Shown: positions 23,553 through 31,457 of the stretch, in pieces
How the letters are laid out: each line of letters opens with the position of its first letter
Position numbering within the stretch: position 1 is the first letter of the stretch
NCBI GenBank assembly: GCA_016926505.1
Contig: JAFGOM010000087.1
Location: forward strand, 1-35,787
Length of the DNA: 35,787 nucleotides
Direction of reading: 5' to 3'
Origin: Methanospirillaceae archaeon
GTDB taxonomy: Archaea; Halobacteriota; Methanomicrobia; Methanomicrobiales; Methanospirillaceae
Translations under genes and position numbers: made by a program
The notes under the pieces: model-generated
Databases searched by the model: none
The model's input: the letters and a program-made list of their open reading frames with translations, nothing else
What the model was told of the DNA's origin: nothing

Positions 23553-24452
23553 ATGGAAACAATTGTATTAGGCATTGGAATTACTGCATTGGCAGGAGCT
23601 CTTGCCACCGTTGCTGGTGCTGCCGAGGATACTGAATCTGATATCGGATCACAGGGTGACCCAAACTCTCAGGTTCAGCTCGCCCCTCAGATGGGATACA
23701 TTCATCGTATCTTTAACAAGGCAGTATCAGGTGAGCCACCGGCATATGGTCTGTGGTGTGCCCTTGGGGCTGGAGTTGCCTTCGCTTTTCTGCAGATTCT
23801 ACATAACCCGGCTCTTGCAATCATTCTTGGTTCGATTGTTGCCGTTTTTGTCCAGGGTGTCTACTGTGTCACCGCATACCTGGGACGGACAGCCAGTCTT
23901 GCAAAGTTTGAGCAGCCGGTCTACATTGACGTGGTCAAATCACTGACTCCAGTGACCATGGCACACGCATTTGTAGCTATCTTCTGTACCGTTACGATGT
24001 GTTATCTGATGGCAGAGTTCCTGCATCATCCGTTTGCACTCCCCCTTCTGGGGCTAGTCTGGGGCATCGCCCTGGGAGCAGCCGGATCTGCAACAGGAAA
24101 TCCGTTTTACGGAAAGGAACGCCAGTACCAGAATCAGAACTTCGGTGCCGGAGTTCCCATCTCAGCATCAGGAAACATCGTCAGATATGCTGAAGCCGGA
24201 CAGCGATCCTCATTGGATAACGGCTGGTTTACAACCAAGTTTGCAGGACCTGCATCAGGTATCTGCTTTGGACTGATTGTATTCCTCGAGCTCTGGAGGA
24301 CCGTCCTCTTTGAACACGAACTCGGACAATGGGGAGCCGTAATCATCGGATTCGTTCTTATTGTTATCTTTGCCATCATCGATCTCTGGGTCGAGAAGTG
24401 GTCACGCACCACCTACGGGCCATACGAGAAAGCTGAGGAGGCATCATCATGA
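23553..24452 (+). CDS. mtrE: Tetrahydromethanopterin S-methyltransferase subunit E
   Basis: Integral membrane subunit of the complex that moves the methyl group from H4MPT to coenzyme M and pumps Na+. The 299-aa protein has about six membrane segments and contains GDPNSQVQLAPQMGYIHRIFNKAVSGEPPAYG and GAAGSATGNPFYGKERQYQNQNFGAGVPISASGNIVRYAE-type loops that are characteristic of MtrE. It forms part of the MtrCDE membrane core. ATG 23553 has AGGAGAAAGG just upstream. Its stop overlaps the mtrD start (ATGA). Confidence 0.97.
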   Translation: METIVLGIGITALAGALATVAGAAEDTESDIGSQGDPNSQVQLAPQMGYIHRIFNKAVSGEPPAYGLWCALGAGVAFAFLQILHNPALAIILGSIVAVFVQGVYCVTAYLGRTASLAKFEQPVYIDVVKSLTPVTMAHAFVAIFCTVTMCYLMAEFLHHPFALPLLGLVWGIALGAAGSATGNPFYGKERQYQNQNFGAGVPISASGNIVRYAEAGQRSSLDNGWFTTKFAGPASGICFGLIVFLELWRTVLFEHELGQWGAVIIGFVLIVIFAIIDLWVEKWSRTTYGPYEKAEEASS

Positions 24453-25330
24453 GCGCACTCGGAGGACAGGCACGTGGCGGTGATGGTATCAACTGGAAAG
24501 GAACAGCGGTTGGTATCTTCATCCTGCTCGTTGCCATTCTCATTACCTACGCACTTGAGCAGTCCCTCATCCCCCCCGGTCTCTTTGGCAGTCTGCAGGG
24601 TGTCGCCCTTGTCGTTCCGCTCATCGGAATCATCGTAGGAGGAGCACTCATCGGATTCGGGGTCCATTTCGTCCCGGTCGGTGGAGCTCCTGCGGCCATG
24701 GGCCAGGCTCCCGGTATCGCAACCGGTGTGGCCATGCTCGCAGCAGGTGCCGGTCTTGCCGGTCTCTTTGGCGGTGCATGGGCATGGGAGACCACCCACG
24801 ACTTCTGGATAACGATTATTGGAGGCGGAATCGGTGGCGGTCTCATGATGGCAATCACCTGTCTCATGGTGAACCTGACCTATGTCTTTGCCATGGGAGT
24901 TCCTTCAGCTTCGGGAAAGGTCGCAAAGGATCCAATAACCGGGTTCACATTCCCTGAGTTTAAGTCACAAGGTACCGAGGGTCACGGACTTCCATTCATC
25001 TCGTACTTTGGTGGCGTTGTCGGAGGATTCCTGGCAGCTCTTGGCGGAACACTCGTCTACCTCGAACTGCTGCTGGTATACCAGCCGGGATTAGAGAAAC
25101 TCCTCGGGATCGATGCCGGTTCCGTGGCACCCCTCGCGGTCTCGCTCGCCGGTATCTTTGCCATCGGGTTCTTCCTGGTAAATGCAGTGCTTTCTGCGTA
25201 TAACATCACGGGAACAATCGAAGGACCGCACGATCCAAAATTCAAGCGTGTTCCACGGGCTATCATCGGCTGTGCCGTCGCATCGGCGGTCTGCGGACTC
25301 GTAGCCATACTCACGGTGGTAGCATTATGA
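24449..25330 (+). CDS. mtrD: Tetrahydromethanopterin S-methyltransferase subunit D
   Basis: A 293-aa polytopic membrane protein, part of the MtrCDE Na+-translocating core. It is rich in Gly/Ala membrane helices, and includes GGGLMMAITCLMVNLTYVFAMGVPSASGKVAKDPITG and FNITGTIEGPHDPKFKR-like sequence (here YNITGTIEGPHDPKFKR), a strong MtrD signature. The start is coupled to mtrE. The next gene follows after a GAGGTG site that overlaps its stop region. Confidence 0.97.
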   Translation: MSALGGQARGGDGINWKGTAVGIFILLVAILITYALEQSLIPPGLFGSLQGVALVVPLIGIIVGGALIGFGVHFVPVGGAPAAMGQAPGIATGVAMLAAGAGLAGLFGGAWAWETTHDFWITIIGGGIGGGLMMAITCLMVNLTYVFAMGVPSASGKVAKDPITGFTFPEFKSQGTEGHGLPFISYFGGVVGGFLAALGGTLVYLELLLVYQPGLEKLLGIDAGSVAPLAVSLAGIFAIGFFLVNAVLSAYNITGTIEGPHDPKFKRVPRAIIGCAVASAVCGLVAILTVVAL

Positions 25331-25340
25331 GGTGGATAGC

Positions 25341-26228
25341 ATGACGGTAAAAATGGAAGCTTCAGCAGGTGGAATCCCACACAAAACACTTCTTATCGGT
25401 GGTCTTGTCACCGCGGTCGTGTGTATCTACCTGACATATCTAAACCAGATACTTGGTGTCGGTTATTTCGCATTCTTCGGTGGAATTGCAGCAGTTGCTG
25501 CACTCTGGTGGGGATCTGACACGATCAAGCACCTCTGCAGTTACGGTCTCGGGACAGGAGTTCCGTCTGCCGGTATGATTGCCTTTGGAACGGGAGCAAT
25601 CGCGATGATCGTTGCCACCAAATTTGGTATCGCAACACCGATCGTTGCCGTGATAATCGCTGCAATCATCGGGGCTATCATCGGGTACATTGCAAACGAG
25701 ATCATCAACATGAACATTCCGGTTATGATAATCTCGCTCACCGAACTTGCTATCGTCGGAGCCCTTACCATGCTCGGACTTGCATCGATGGCTTGTGGAT
25801 CATTCCTGTTCGAGAACATGATAACAAACGGAGCAATTGTAACCGCTGTCGGCCTTAGTGGCGCTGAAAACGCAGGTATCCTTGTTGCAAACATCGATGC
25901 TACCGGAACGCTTATCGGAGGCTGCGTCTTTGCAGTCATCTTTATGCTCGGTGCTATTGCCCTGCAACACCCGTTTAACGCGTGTCTCGGACCGAACGAG
26001 AGCCAGGACCGCACACTCATGCTTACCATGGAGTGCGGGTTCCTCTCAATGATTCCAGTTGCGGTCATCTCCTATGCATACCTTGACCTGGTTGCCGCAT
26101 CGGTCTCTCTCGTCGTATCACTCATCGGATTTGTATACACCTTAAGGGAGTACTTCCGGTTATCCCGGCGTGATGCCTATGCATGGCTGGATGCAAAACC
26201 AATCCGTGAAGTCGGAGGTGAACAGTAA
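25341..26228 (+). CDS. mtrC: Tetrahydromethanopterin S-methyltransferase subunit C
   Basis: Third subunit of the membrane core, 295 aa, with around eight hydrophobic segments. The conserved YGLGTGVPSAGMIAFGTG and FNACLGPNESQDRTLMLTMECGFLSMIPV elements are MtrC hallmarks. The start at ATG 25341 is chosen over an in-frame GTG at 25332 because the GAGGTG at 25329-25334 serves it with good spacing. The stop overlaps mtrB by one base. Confidence 0.97.
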   Translation: MTVKMEASAGGIPHKTLLIGGLVTAVVCIYLTYLNQILGVGYFAFFGGIAAVAALWWGSDTIKHLCSYGLGTGVPSAGMIAFGTGAIAMIVATKFGIATPIVAVIIAAIIGAIIGYIANEIINMNIPVMIISLTELAIVGALTMLGLASMACGSFLFENMITNGAIVTAVGLSGAENAGILVANIDATGTLIGGCVFAVIFMLGAIALQHPFNACLGPNESQDRTLMLTMECGFLSMIPVAVISYAYLDLVAASVSLVVSLIGFVYTLREYFRLSRRDAYAWLDAKPIREVGGEQ

Positions 26229-26515
26229 TGAGCTGGATTCCGGTCTTACCAGAATTCGGACTCGGCTGTGACCCCATCTTAGGGTTTGTCACTGCTCAGG
26301 GAGAATCTCTCGGGCCCATTGTCGAACAGGTAGACCTTCTTGAGAAGATCACAGACGATATCGTCGGATCCTTATCAGGTGAGGGATCATTCCTTGCATC
26401 GTTTCCCCACAGGGAGAAATCACTGGTCTATGCCGGTGGGATCACTGCCATATGGTATGGTCTTGCGGTAGGCCTTGCGGTTGCAGGACTGATCATGCTT
26501 GCAATGATGCATTAG
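26228..26515 (+). CDS. mtrB: Tetrahydromethanopterin S-methyltransferase subunit B
   Basis: A small 95-aa subunit with a soluble N-terminal part ([37 protein letters not shown]-like region) and a single C-terminal membrane helix (about residues 75-94). It packs around the MtrCDE core with MtrA, F and G. One-base overlap with mtrC. It is followed by a 13-nt gap containing GAGGTG before mtrA. Confidence 0.95.
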
Positions 26516-26528
26516 AGGTGGAAATACT

Positions 26529-27260
26529 ATGGCAGATAAAAAAGCACCAGCCAGTGGCTGGCCAATTGTCCAGGGTGACTTTCACACCGGTGATGCTAAC
26601 AGCCCTGTTGCCGTTGTAACGATGGGCTCCCACCTTGATGAGGAGGGGATCTGTTCTGCCGGAGCGGCAATCTGTGGTTCCTGCAAAACCGAGAACCTCG
26701 GACTTGAGAAGGTTATCGCAAACGTCATCTCCAACCCGAACATCAGGTTCGTGCTCACGGTCGGTACCGAAGTCAAAGGTCACCTCAGTGGTGAGAGCTT
26801 AATCGCACTCCATGCAAACGGGGTTGACGGAGGACGTATCGTCGGAACCAAAGGTGCCATTCCGTTCATCGAGAACCTTGATGACGCTGCTATCAAACGC
26901 TTCCAGGAACAGGTTGAGATCGTCAACATCATGGAGAGCGAAGATACCGGTGCTATCACGGCCAAGATTGCCGAGCTGAAAGGCCGTGATCCAGGGGCAT
27001 TCGAAGGAGATCCTTTTATCGTTGAGATCAAGGATGAAGGTGCCGGAGCCGCAGAGGCGGGTGGAGAGGTCAGACCGATGTCAGCAGAGGTTGCCCTCAT
27101 CACCGCACGGTTAAAGACCATCCAGATGATGGTGACCGATATCGGGTACCGTGACAAGTTCGCAGCCGGCGTATACGGTGGTAAAGTTGAAGGCCTGATG
27201 ATAGGACTCATGATATCGTTCCTCATCGTCGGATTGCTTCTGATGAAGGTACAGGGGTGA
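26529..27260 (+). CDS. mtrA: Tetrahydromethanopterin S-methyltransferase subunit A (corrinoid protein)
   Basis: MtrA carries the cobamide that accepts the methyl group from methyl-H4MPT and passes it to coenzyme M. The 243-aa protein has the cytoplasmic corrinoid domain (about 1-170), a linker and a C-terminal membrane helix (about 222-240). [10 protein letters not shown] places His85 at the position of the cobalt-binding histidine (His84 in Methanothermobacter). The segment before the helix ([22 protein letters not shown]) is the normal MtrA/MtrF-like tail. A second, nearly identical corrinoid domain is encoded two genes downstream, fused to MtrG. Confidence 0.96.
26787..26830 (+). repeat. 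44-nt identical block shared by both MtrA domains (copy 1)
   Basis: This stretch, coding for [15 protein letters not shown] just after the cobalt-ligand histidine, is identical base for base to 27743-27786, while neighbouring codons differ at third positions. That pattern suggests recent gene conversion between the two domains. Confidence 0.85.
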
Positions 27261-27267
27261 ATAATCA

Positions 27268-27483
27268 ATGGCAGATGATGATACAAATCAGCAGCAGGCC
27301 GGTCCGGTCCGCATGACCGCCATCATGGCTATGATGAATGACATCAGGTTCAAGGCACAGCTTATCGCACGAACAAACAAGCTGGAATCCGGTATCATGG
27401 GTTCAGGACTGATTGGGTTCATCGTGGGTCTGTTATTCTCTCTGATCCTCGTTGTTCCGGTTCTCTTCCTGGGAGGAGCATAA
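27268..27483 (+). CDS. mtrF: Tetrahydromethanopterin S-methyltransferase subunit F
   Basis: A 71-aa single-helix subunit. [30 protein letters not shown] matches MtrF and resembles the C-terminal part of MtrA; the membrane helix covers about residues 47-68. The start is 7 nt after mtrA; the stop is one base before the mtrA-mtrG fusion gene, whose ribosome site (GGGAGGA) lies inside the mtrF 3' end. Confidence 0.93.
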
Positions 27484-27484
27484 A

Positions 27485-28198
27485 ATGGCAGAAAAGAAAG
27501 ATCCGGCATCCGGATGGCCGATTGTCCAGGGTGATTTTCACACCGGAGACCCGAAGAGTTCTGTCGCAGTCGTCACCATGGGATCCCATCTTGATGAAGC
27601 AGGTATCTGTGCAGCAGGGGCTGCAATCTGTGGTTCCTGCAAGACCGAGAACCTTGGACTTGAGAAGGTCATTGCAAATGTTATCTCAAACCCGAACATC
27701 AGGTACGTTCTGACCGTTGGAACCGAGGTTAAGGGTCACTTAAGTGGTGAGAGCTTAATCGCACTCCATGCAAACGGGGTTGACGGCGGTCGTATCGTCG
27801 GGACAAAAGGTGCTATTCCGTTTATCGAGAACCTTTCAGCAGAGAACATCACGCGATTCCAGGATCAGGTTGAGATCGTCAACATCATGGAGAGTGAAGA
27901 TATCAGTGCGATCTCTGCAAAAATTGCTGAACTGAACGGAAAAGATACTGATGCGTTTGCAGAAGGCCCGATGGTTGTCGAGATCAAGGAAGAAGGAGGA
28001 GCAGGAGAAGCTCTTGCAGCAACTGCCAACCCGCAGTTCCTTGAGATTGAGGCTAAGCTGGACGCAATTGAGACAAAACTCGAGTTCGCTGATGCTGAGA
28101 TTGCACAGCGTGTCGGACGTAAAGTCGGACGTGACATCGGTATCCTCTATGGTATTGTTGCAGGTCTGATGGTTTACGTGATCATTACCGCATTATGA
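27485..28198 (+). CDS. mtrA-mtrG: MtrA-MtrG fusion: second corrinoid domain joined to methyltransferase subunit G
   Basis: A 237-aa protein occupying the usual mtrG position. Residues 1-117 match MtrA from 26529 with only about 8 substitutions, and His85 in [10 protein letters not shown] is kept, so cobamide binding is expected. After about residue 170 the sequence leaves MtrA: a Gly/Ala linker (171-182), then [21 protein letters not shown] (coiled-coil), [16 protein letters not shown] and a membrane helix (217-236), which is MtrG. No separate mtrG exists in the operon. The start ATG 27485 begins [18 protein letters not shown], parallel to mtrA; an ATG at 27452 lies inside mtrF and is rejected. 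The fusion is seen directly; methyl transfer by the second domain is inference. Confidence 0.92.
27743..27786 (+). repeat. 44-nt identical block shared by both MtrA domains (copy 2)
   Basis: Partner of 26787-26830. A second identical block of 29 nt is found at 26910-26938 and 27866-27894 (coding for [10 protein letters not shown]). Confidence 0.85.
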
Positions 28199-28258
28199 TG
28201 CCAGTTACCGAAGTTCTACTAAGGAATACATTGGGATTTATAAGCGAGGTGTTATCAG

Positions 28259-29281
28259 ATGTTTAGGTTTGAGAAAGAACAGACCGTTCTTGACTTTAAT
28301 GGCTATAAGATTGGTGGACAGCCGGGAGAGTACCCACGTGCTCTTGGTGCATCAATCTTTTATAACAAGCACGAGACTGTACTGAATGAGCACACAGGCG
28401 AGATTGACAAACCACGTGCAGAAGCACTCTGGAATCGTTGTCTTGAACTGTATGACGAGACAGGGCACTGGTATTTCTGCCAGATAATTGCAGAATACCC
28501 GGAGGCGTTTGAGAACTACTTTAACTGGTTTACCGAGATTGATGACCAGTTCCCATTCTTAATGGACTCATCAGCTCCGGAAACACTTGCCCATGCCTGT
28601 AAATACGTCACTGAGATCGGTATTGCCGATCGTGCTGTGTACAACTCTATCAACGGATCCATCGGACCCGAGAACATGGAAGCGCTCAAAAAGAGTGATG
28701 TCAACTCTGCAATCGTTCTTGCGTTTAACCCGGGTGACCCGAGCGTCCGTGGACGTGAGAAGGTGCTCACCGAGGGAGGCGTTGCAGGACAGGAAAAGTC
28801 CATGATAGGAATTGCAGAGGAATGTGGTATAACAAGACCTATTCTTGATACCGCAGCAACTCCGCTCGGGCTTGGATCCGGCGGTTCGTTCCGTGAGATC
28901 CTTGCCTGTAAGGCAATTCACGGGCTCCCGACCGGTGGTGCCTACCACAACATGACCGTCTCATGGACCTGGCTGAAACGCTGGAGAAAGGGAGGTCTCA
29001 TCGACCGGTACACCGATTCAGGTGTCCTTCTCGAACAGATGGCTCACCACCACTTTGGCGGCCTTGACGGTATCAGGCAGGCTGCATGGTCAGCACCTGA
29101 TGTCGGATGTAACATCATGGCAGCAACGCTTGGAGCTGACCTTATCATGTTTGGTCCTATTGAGAACTGTGAAGCAGCAGCAACCGCGATGGCGTTTACC
29201 GATATTGTCCTTGCCGAGACCTACCGTGAGCTTGGTGGCGACATAGCAATCGAGAAGCACCCGTTAAATCTGCTCTGCTAA
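28259..29281 (+). CDS. mtrH: Tetrahydromethanopterin S-methyltransferase subunit H
   Basis: Soluble subunit that transfers the methyl group from methyl-H4MPT to the Co(I) of MtrA. The 340-aa protein begins FRFEKEQTVLDFNGYKIGGQPGEYP and shows the TIM-barrel order typical of MtrH: FLMDSSAPETLAHAC, YNSINGSIGPEN, AIVLAFNPGDPSVRG, ILDTAATPLGLGSG and MAATLGADLIMFGPIENCE. ATG 28259 has GAGGTG at 28246-28251. It lies 60 nt after the fusion gene, the largest gap within the operon. A T-tract follows the stop. It may interact with both corrinoid domains. Confidence 0.97.
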   Translation: MFRFEKEQTVLDFNGYKIGGQPGEYPRALGASIFYNKHETVLNEHTGEIDKPRAEALWNRCLELYDETGHWYFCQIIAEYPEAFENYFNWFTEIDDQFPFLMDSSAPETLAHACKYVTEIGIADRAVYNSINGSIGPENMEALKKSDVNSAIVLAFNPGDPSVRGREKVLTEGGVAGQEKSMIGIAEECGITRPILDTAATPLGLGSGGSFREILACKAIHGLPTGGAYHNMTVSWTWLKRWRKGGLIDRYTDSGVLLEQMAHHHFGGLDGIRQAAWSAPDVGCNIMAATLGADLIMFGPIENCEAAATAMAFTDIVLAETYRELGGDIAIEKHPLNLLC

Positions 29282-29341: not shown

Positions 29342-29502
29342 ACACAAAAAACCCGCTGTCTCTTTTCCATCCACCCGGGTTGTATCCGGACAGAACAAAT
29401 CTGCCGGATCGGGTATCATCACATCCCTGCGATCGCCGGGTATCAGTAATAGCAGGTACCGGATAATGACAAGACGAAACGACTATATTTTCCCGATACA
29501 CT

Positions 29503-29514
29503 GTATTATAAAAA
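29503..29514 (+). promoter_or_regulatory. Candidate TATA box for the radical SAM gene
   Basis: TATTATAAAAAC resembles an archaeal TATA box. A start point about 25 nt downstream would lie just before ATG 29553 and supports that start over the in-frame ATG at 29466. Confidence 0.4.
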
Positions 29515-29552
29515 CCGGAATCCATGGGACCGGTTACATTGACGGGATATAC

Positions 29553-30866
29553 ATGAAGGTCACGGTCTGTTCACCAGGTATCTACACCTATGGAGCAATG
29601 CTCATCGGAGGTATCATCAGAGACTTGGGCTATGATGTAACAATAGAGAGAGACCTTCATGCGATTGATGGTGATCTTCTCTTTCTCTCTCTTTACTCAA
29701 CCCAGCATCTGTTAAACCCGCTTATAAAAGAGGCAGTGAGAACCTGTAGGGCGAAGGGAACACGATGCTATATCGGGGGACCGGTCTCGGCATATCCTGA
29801 TATTGTCTTTGGCGAACTCAACCCTGATGCAGTGGTGATCGGTGAAGGAGAGCCGGCAATACCGGTCCTGTTAAAAACTGAAGATCCCTCACAGGCTCCC
29901 AACTGCATGTACCGCTCAGACGGGTCTCTTTTGTCTACAGAACGGGTACGGATGACAGAGATAGAACATCCCGTTCCCCTGATCCCTGATGACATCAGGA
30001 ACCAGAGTATCAGGGGGGCAAATGTCTATATCGAGACTCACCGGGGATGTTTCGGCAGGTGTGGATTCTGCCAGGTGCCCCTCTTTTTTGGCAGAAAGAT
30101 CCGGAGCCGTGATATTGAACCGATCCTGAACGAGGTGCGGGCTTTTAAAGAGAAGGGAGTGGAAAAAGTAGCCATCAGCGGGGGTACCGGATCCTTATAC
30201 AAGTCTCATGACAACACGCTTGATACCGGTGCTTTCCTCGAACTGCTGGAAGGATTATCAGGGATAATGGGCCCGAAAAATGTATCCTGTCCTGATATCA
30301 GGGTAGACTGTATTACTGATGAAGTCCTTGAGGCAATCCGTAACCATACGGTTGGCTGGATCTTTTTCGGGATTGAATCCGGGAGTCAGAAGATGCTTGA
30401 TAGTATCAGGAAAGGGATAATCATCGAGCAGGCAGAAGAAGCAATCGGGAGATGCCGCCAGTCTGGTGTTCATGCTGCCGGCAGCCTGATTTGCGGATAC
30501 CCGGGTGAGACAGAAGAAGACTTTCTCATGACAAAAGACTTTCTTTCGCGAAATGCACTGGAGGATGTCTTTATCAGCATTGCTGAACCAATCCCGCATA
30601 CCCCGCTTGGTACGATGGTTCTTGAGATAAACCGGGATGAGAACCCGGTGTATGCACCCCATAAGGGGGAATATGCATCCCTGCACCTGACAGAAGCAGA
30701 AGCCCGTGCGTTTGATCTCATGCTCCATGCAGACATGAGCAAACCGGTTCTGCGTCTCATAACTGACGATATCTTCTCATCCTATCTCAGTGAGGCAAAA
30801 CAGCAGGGAACTGATATCAGGGCTGCAACCGATCTGCTCTTCCGCTACCACGGGAGAGATGTGTGA
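29553..30866 (+). CDS. mgmA: B12-binding-type radical SAM protein, candidate McrA glutamine C-methyltransferase
   Basis: The 437-aa protein has an N-terminal Rossmann domain of the cobalamin-binding radical SAM type (YTYGAMLIGGIIRDLGYDV, YIGGPVSAYPDIVFGELN, VVIGEGEPAIPVLL), without the DxHxxG motif. The radical SAM core follows with CFGRCGFC (Cys166, Cys170, Cys173) and FFGIESGSQKMLDSIRKG. Enzymes of this type methylate unreactive carbons. MgmA, which methylates the alpha carbon of the active-site glutamine of McrA, is the best candidate because the gene lies next to mcr/mtr and the target Gln417 is present. This identity is inference. It lacks the cysteine-rich opening of Mmp10, the arginine methylase. 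Confidence 0.68.
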   Translation: MKVTVCSPGIYTYGAMLIGGIIRDLGYDVTIERDLHAIDGDLLFLSLYSTQHLLNPLIKEAVRTCRAKGTRCYIGGPVSAYPDIVFGELNPDAVVIGEGEPAIPVLLKTEDPSQAPNCMYRSDGSLLSTERVRMTEIEHPVPLIPDDIRNQSIRGANVYIETHRGCFGRCGFCQVPLFFGRKIRSRDIEPILNEVRAFKEKGVEKVAISGGTGSLYKSHDNTLDTGAFLELLEGLSGIMGPKNVSCPDIRVDCITDEVLEAIRNHTVGWIFFGIESGSQKMLDSIRKGIIIEQAEEAIGRCRQSGVHAAGSLICGYPGETEEDFLMTKDFLSRNALEDVFISIAEPIPHTPLGTMVLEINRDENPVYAPHKGEYASLHLTEAEARAFDLMLHADMSKPVLRLITDDIFSSYLSEAKQQGTDIRAATDLLFRYHGRDV

Positions 30867-30911: not shown

Positions 30912-31457
30912 TCATTTTCTGGCCCGGTCCCTTTGCCGAAGTTCTTTGGGAGTACTGTTCCATTCGCCGATATCAAGAAGGTGCTGATTATCAACCCATC
31001 CACTTCTCACTTCCTCGCGATGATCAAACTGCCGTACATACGGTTTGATATCCAGAAGCGGGGTCCCGTCCAGCACATCAACACCTGATACCGTAAGAAT
31101 GGTACCAGAAACCTCCAGCAATTCCATGATAGAAATTCCCATGGCATTCGGCCTGTTGAAATGACGTATGGCAAATATCCCACGCTCTTTTTCTCCGTCA
31201 AGAAAGGGTTTCTGCACCAGGTTTTTCCCGGTTGCATGATGAAAATAATAAATCGCATAGATATGGGAGAACGATTCTATATCGGCAAGTCCGGGTGCAA
31301 ATTCCTCGAACAATTCGATAAATCCTACCGATGGATTAAAAATCCCCTGGATAGGAGTATTTTCGTGTTCTGTATGTTCAGAGTGAATTATCCCGATAGG
31401 ATGAAAGATAATGGGTGCATCTTTCCATTGTTCTCTGTGTTTCCGTGTCAGGTTCAT
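30912..31457 (-). CDS. trmO: tRNA (N6-threonylcarbamoyladenosine-37) N6-methyltransferase
   Basis: TsaA/TrmO-family protein that methylates t6A37 in tRNA using SAM. The 181-aa sequence shows FHPIGIIHSEH near the start, LADIESFSHIYAIYYFHHATG, GIFAIRHFNRPNAMGIS (the RPN-x-GIS signature) and LDGTPLLDIKPYV, all typical of the beta-barrel family. It converges with the radical SAM gene, with only 45 bases between the stops. The ATG at 31457 is the only start consistent with the conserved opening. In archaea the substrate can also be other tRNA nucleotides, so the exact reaction is inferred. Confidence 0.88.
   Translation of the reverse strand: MNLTRKHREQWKDAPIIFHPIGIIHSEHTEHENTPIQGIFNPSVGFIELFEEFAPGLADIESFSHIYAIYYFHHATGKNLVQKPFLDGEKERGIFAIRHFNRPNAMGISIMELLEVSGTILTVSGVDVLDGTPLLDIKPYVRQFDHREEVRSGWVDNQHLLDIGEWNSTPKELRQRDRARK

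Follow-up and report, generated by a model that had tools for sequence, protein, structure and literature searches.

The window, that is, the whole stretch of DNA analysed here (35,787 nucleotides, contig JAFGOM010000087.1 of a Methanospirillaceae archaeon), carries at 27485-28198 a gene in which an MtrA corrinoid-binding domain is fused to MtrG, within the operon for the Mtr complex. Judged from its sequence, this gene is an mtrA-2b that substitutes for a free mtrG and whose N-terminal domain is probably (we would put the probability at roughly 0.65) a second catalytically competent corrinoid carrier, with two cobamides per protomer. The MtrA-MtrG architecture itself is already known and is standard in the Methanomicrobiales, for which Wang et al. 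2015 (PMC4632066) described an mtrA-1 together with mtrA-2b, MtrA fused to MtrG, lying between mtrF and mtrH, and so the window fusion adds just one more genome. The original prediction, made from the letters of the window, took a single corrinoid subunit and an unfused MtrG to be the rule in known Mtr complexes; this holds for the solved complexes of Methanothermobacter marburgensis and Methanosarcina mazei but not for the literature, where the fusion has stood since 2015, and with that publication and an order-wide distribution the fusion is neither rare nor unrecorded. A whole order of methanogens encodes a two-MtrA Mtr complex, and the remaining interest lies in its biochemistry. The parts of the fusion gene are:

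27485-28198, forward strand: mtrA-2b, the MtrA-MtrG fusion gene, an open frame of 237 amino acids with stop TGA (Pfam PF04208 and PF04210; NCBIfam mtrA and mtrG models)
27494-28000, forward strand: residues 4-172 of the fusion, its MtrA corrinoid-binding domain, including the cobalt ligand His85 (Pfam PF04208; His85, Glu55; predicted fold)
28028-28192, forward strand: residues 182-236 of the fusion, its MtrG part, made up of a stalk helix and a membrane helix (Pfam PF04210; helices of the predicted model)

The frame is single and has zero internal stops, and so no stop splits the corrinoid part from the MtrG part. Pfam placed the MtrA domain at residues 4-172 (E=3.9e-80) and the MtrG domain at residues 182-236 (E=4.2e-22, profile positions 9-63 of 64), and the NCBIfam mtrA and mtrG models each exceeded their cut-off on the same protein, confirming the predicted joining of the two in one gene. 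The MtrG part had been called complete; its coiled-coil and membrane helix are present, but it is nearly rather than fully complete, being 3-11 residues short. Across the genome (2.94 Mb in 121 contigs, 99.97% complete) there are two MtrA-like places, the second being the normal mtrA at 26529-27260 that the prediction had also noted, while the genome-wide search with PF04210 gave one match, the fused copy, and found no free mtrG, again as predicted. This gene content points to two corrinoid domains per protomer.

The two MtrA domains of the window are 93.2% identical over the first 117 residues (the earlier hand count of about 93% was exact) and 86.0% identical over residues 4-160. Alignment with the window MtrA showed that the second copy retains the cobalt ligand His85, as had been claimed, together with Glu55, the hydrogen-bond partner of His85 (PMC4915002), and the GAIPFIEN segment; His85 and Glu55 were found in 50 of the 50 second copies compared. 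The positions that form the interface with MtrH and MtrCDE, taken from work on M. marburgensis with the numbering moved by one residue on visual inspection of the alignment, are identical in the window's two copies. At 74 columns invariant in 49 other mtrA-1 sequences, the window mtrA-2 departs at only three, one of them N-terminal and two in a site for the enzyme connectase. Between the copies, the ratio of nonsynonymous to synonymous divergence (dN/dS) comes to about 0.08 (0.09/1.13), showing at the level of sequence that both are under purifying selection. In the predicted structure residues 1-160 take the MtrA fold, with TM-scores by target of 0.90-0.93 to 5l8x, 5laa and 9qtr, followed by a low-confidence linker at 170-183, which was taken as disordered, and by helices at 183-198 and 204-236.

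The MtrG helix of the fusion would play its ordinary role in the three-fold Mtr stalk. If the fused domain does work as a carrier, the MtrA domain, tethered to the cytoplasmic tip of this stalk by the flexible linker, would act beside MtrA-1 as a methyl shuttle from MtrH to coenzyme M at MtrCDE, the outcome being two cobamides per protomer. In the M. marburgensis complex (PMC10998594) all four stalk subunits have their N-termini at the cytoplasmic end, and the domain of MtrA itself is suspended by a disordered linker. As the MtrG N-terminus is at the cytoplasmic stalk tip, the geometry permits such a tether, and the fused domain would start from a place equivalent to that of MtrA. From the kept cobamide and interface residues, the purifying selection, the fold and the stalk geometry we infer a second working shuttle, and with it that the domain is loaded with cobamide, that it takes part in turnover and that the assembled complex has two cobamides per protomer. 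In M. mazei (PMC12774963) an MtrH dimer is bound per protomer and the membrane-proximal barrel alone is thought to serve MtrA; one might speculate that a second MtrA domain could serve the other barrel. That the Mtr of this order works with a pair of cobamide shuttles in each protomer, making six per complex, with the MtrG-borne one using an MtrH site poorly reached by a single MtrA and altering the kinetics of Na+ pumping, is a tentative and rather doubtful extension. Were both domains to work, models of Mtr that assume a single carrier in each protomer would not apply to these methanogens.

Several points weigh against a second working carrier. The solved complexes function with one MtrA per protomer, and a literature search found no usable biochemical, proteomic or structural record, or cobamide count, of a two-MtrA Mtr complex. 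Of the two copies in the window lineage, mtrA-2 evolves faster (branch 0.22 compared to 0.064 for mtrA-1), and it has lost its connectase site, suggesting that this copy could drift toward a lesser role. The second MtrA domain might then be structural or regulatory, stabilising the stalk tip or competing for docking sites and carrying no methyl group in turnover, and both the faster evolution of the window mtrA-2 and the sufficiency of single-MtrA complexes in other orders would fit this. We think it unlikely, as the cobalt ligand, Glu55, GAIPFIEN and the interface positions are all retained, which would be needless for a structural role, and in most genomes the domain is homogenised with the working copy; the conservation of the cobamide-site and interface residues thus argues against a purely structural copy, a role that the original prediction had proposed beside a second cobamide and a methyl reservoir.

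Homogenisation between the two copies was compared in 50 genomes in which both are intact. Within a genome the two MtrA domains share a mean 93.3% DNA identity, compared to 75.2% for mtrA-1 orthologs, and in 38 of the 50 genomes no ortholog of either copy comes as close as the paralog. The window pair are sisters in the tree (support 100/99) and share an identical run of 44 bases, a length rarely reached when codon columns were shuffled (p=0.0024), and they are the most divergent pair of the 50 by DNA (79.8% identical). This agrees with the long-lasting gene conversion by which MtrA domains are homogenised according to Wang et al. 2015 (PMC4632066), a case recovered again in a 2018 survey (PMC6053082). 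The 12 exceptions are L004-L011, L034 and L041 (records of Methanospirillum or of genus code g12, which from matching loci we infer to be Methanospirillum) and L059 and L062 (Methanomicrobium); in these, each genus has one clade of mtrA-1 domains and another of mtrA-2 domains, suggesting that homogenisation has lapsed in Methanospirillum and Methanomicrobium. As between-copy conversion was reported for every species pair tested (PMC4632066), this lapse in two genera is a small refinement.

Wang et al. 2015 offered the argument that a second mtrA serves as a template for conversion, by which mutations are purged from mtrA-1; on this view the fusion would matter mainly for gene dosage or evolution and have little mechanistic effect. 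Gene conversion, both as reported (PMC4632066, PMC6053082) and as re-derived here, speaks for it, but in Methanospirillum and Methanomicrobium the fusion persists under purifying selection despite the lapsed homogenisation, which makes this explanation quite improbable. Little needs to be said of an assembly artefact in which two near-repeats were wrongly joined, as the same fusion stands at the same operon position in dozens of genomes, single-contig ones included, and the window copies differ by about 20% in DNA; the order-wide distribution refutes it.

That distribution was read from a sample of 199 Methanomicrobiales genomes searched for the MtrA-MtrG architecture. The fusion query matched 173 of these, and MtrG was detected in 163, with a single copy per genome among those listed and no free mtrG among the matches. 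In the complete loci that were read out, the gene order is mtrA-1, mtrF, mtrA-mtrG, mtrH, and named loci with the fusion include those of Methanospirillum, Methanocalculus, Methanogenium, Methanoregula, Methanocorpusculum, Methanomicrobium and Methanofollis, among others. Outside the order, MtrG is free in the Archaeoglobales loci and in a Methanocella locus (L097), the latter having the MtrA-MtrF version. MtrG matches with short open frames were inspected as possible free-mtrG exceptions (20 matches) and were rejected: 18 end at a contig edge, and in the remaining two (G023 and G184, which seem to be identical with L102 and L088) the MtrA frame is broken by apparent frameshifts with MtrG still attached to part of it, consistent with assembly failure in a near-repeat. 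Draft Methanomicrobiales assemblies often break within mtrA-2, because it nearly repeats mtrA-1, and the truncated MtrG frames left over could pass for free mtrG.

Connectase acts on a KDPGA-type sequence within MtrA (PMC11961121), and in the window fusion this sequence is altered:

27944-27955, forward strand: degenerate connectase-type site, D-T-D-A for D-P-G-A, residues 154-157 (comparison of 50 mtrA-1 and 50 mtrA-2)

The DPG core is present in 50 of 50 mtrA-1 and 49 of 50 mtrA-2 copies, the sole deviant being the window fusion (KDTDA), which thus lacks the KDPGA-type site of a connectase substrate, while the window MtrA-1 retains RDPGA. A search for the connectase family PF09894 gave no match in the window genome, with M. 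jannaschii and M. acetivorans positive as controls. Connectase is patchy in the Methanomicrobiales (33 of 80 sampled genomes), though nearly all the MtrA copies compared retain the site; as many genomes of the order are without the enzyme and yet all other second copies keep DPG, a rule by which DPG loss tracks connectase loss was not supported. At its other end the window fusion, with 237 residues compared to 240-248 in the 49 other fusions, stops 3-11 residues short, directly after the membrane helix. At 28196-28258 the TGA is followed in frame by CQLPKFY, a stretch similar to the LPKL tail that relatives have, and 60 bases separate the fusion from mtrH, more than in relatives; going by the sequence, the C-terminal tail looks to have been lost. 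The DPG loss and the shortened tail come from one assembly, the single genome of its genus in the collection. Together with the lapsed homogenisation in Methanospirillum and Methanomicrobium, they are small new details.

The operon is complete in the window, in the order mtrE-D-C-B-A-F-(A-G)-H, and the fusion is placed between mtrF and mtrH, with the normal mtrA-1 and a free mtrF upstream and mtrH downstream:

23553-24452, forward strand: mtrE (NCBIfam TIGR01113)
24449-25330, forward strand: mtrD (NCBIfam TIGR01112)
25332-26228, forward strand: mtrC (NCBIfam TIGR01148)
26228-26515, forward strand: mtrB (NCBIfam TIGR04166)
26529-27260, forward strand: mtrA-1, the normal MtrA, which has a membrane helix of its own at the C-terminus (Pfam PF04208; NCBIfam TIGR01111 over the full model)
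27268-27483, forward strand: mtrF, a separate gene (Pfam PF09472)
28259-29281, forward strand: mtrH (NCBIfam TIGR01114)

Directly 3' of mtrH, at 29466-30866 on the forward strand, is a match to TIGR04014, the methyl-coenzyme M reductase glutamine C-methyltransferase (B12-binding radical SAM), and at 30912-31457 on the reverse strand is a tRNA methyltransferase of the TrmO (TsaA) family (TIGR00104).

Among known systems the window fusion is most directly compared with mtrA-2b of Wang et al. 2015 (PMC4632066), with which it shares the domain order, the position between mtrF and mtrH, the retained mtrA-1 and the absence of a free mtrG, and also paralogous MtrA domains that are more alike than orthologs. 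Unlike the other mtrA-2b genes compared, it has lost DPG from its connectase site and has no tail beyond the membrane helix, and among the 50 pairs its two MtrA domains show the lowest DNA identity (79.8%). The mtrA-2a of the Methanococcales and Methanocella arvoryzae likewise puts a second MtrA domain on a small stalk subunit within the mtr operon, but there the partner is MtrF, not MtrG, and the origin in the Methanococcales was reported as independent (PMC4632066). Compared with the canonical Mtr complexes of M. marburgensis (8q3v, PMC10998594) and M. mazei (9qtq, PMC12774963), the window has all eight functions in the order E-D-C-B-A-F-G-H, and the MtrG and MtrA parts of the fusion align to chains of these solved complexes, in which, unlike in the window, each protomer has a single MtrA and an unfused MtrG.
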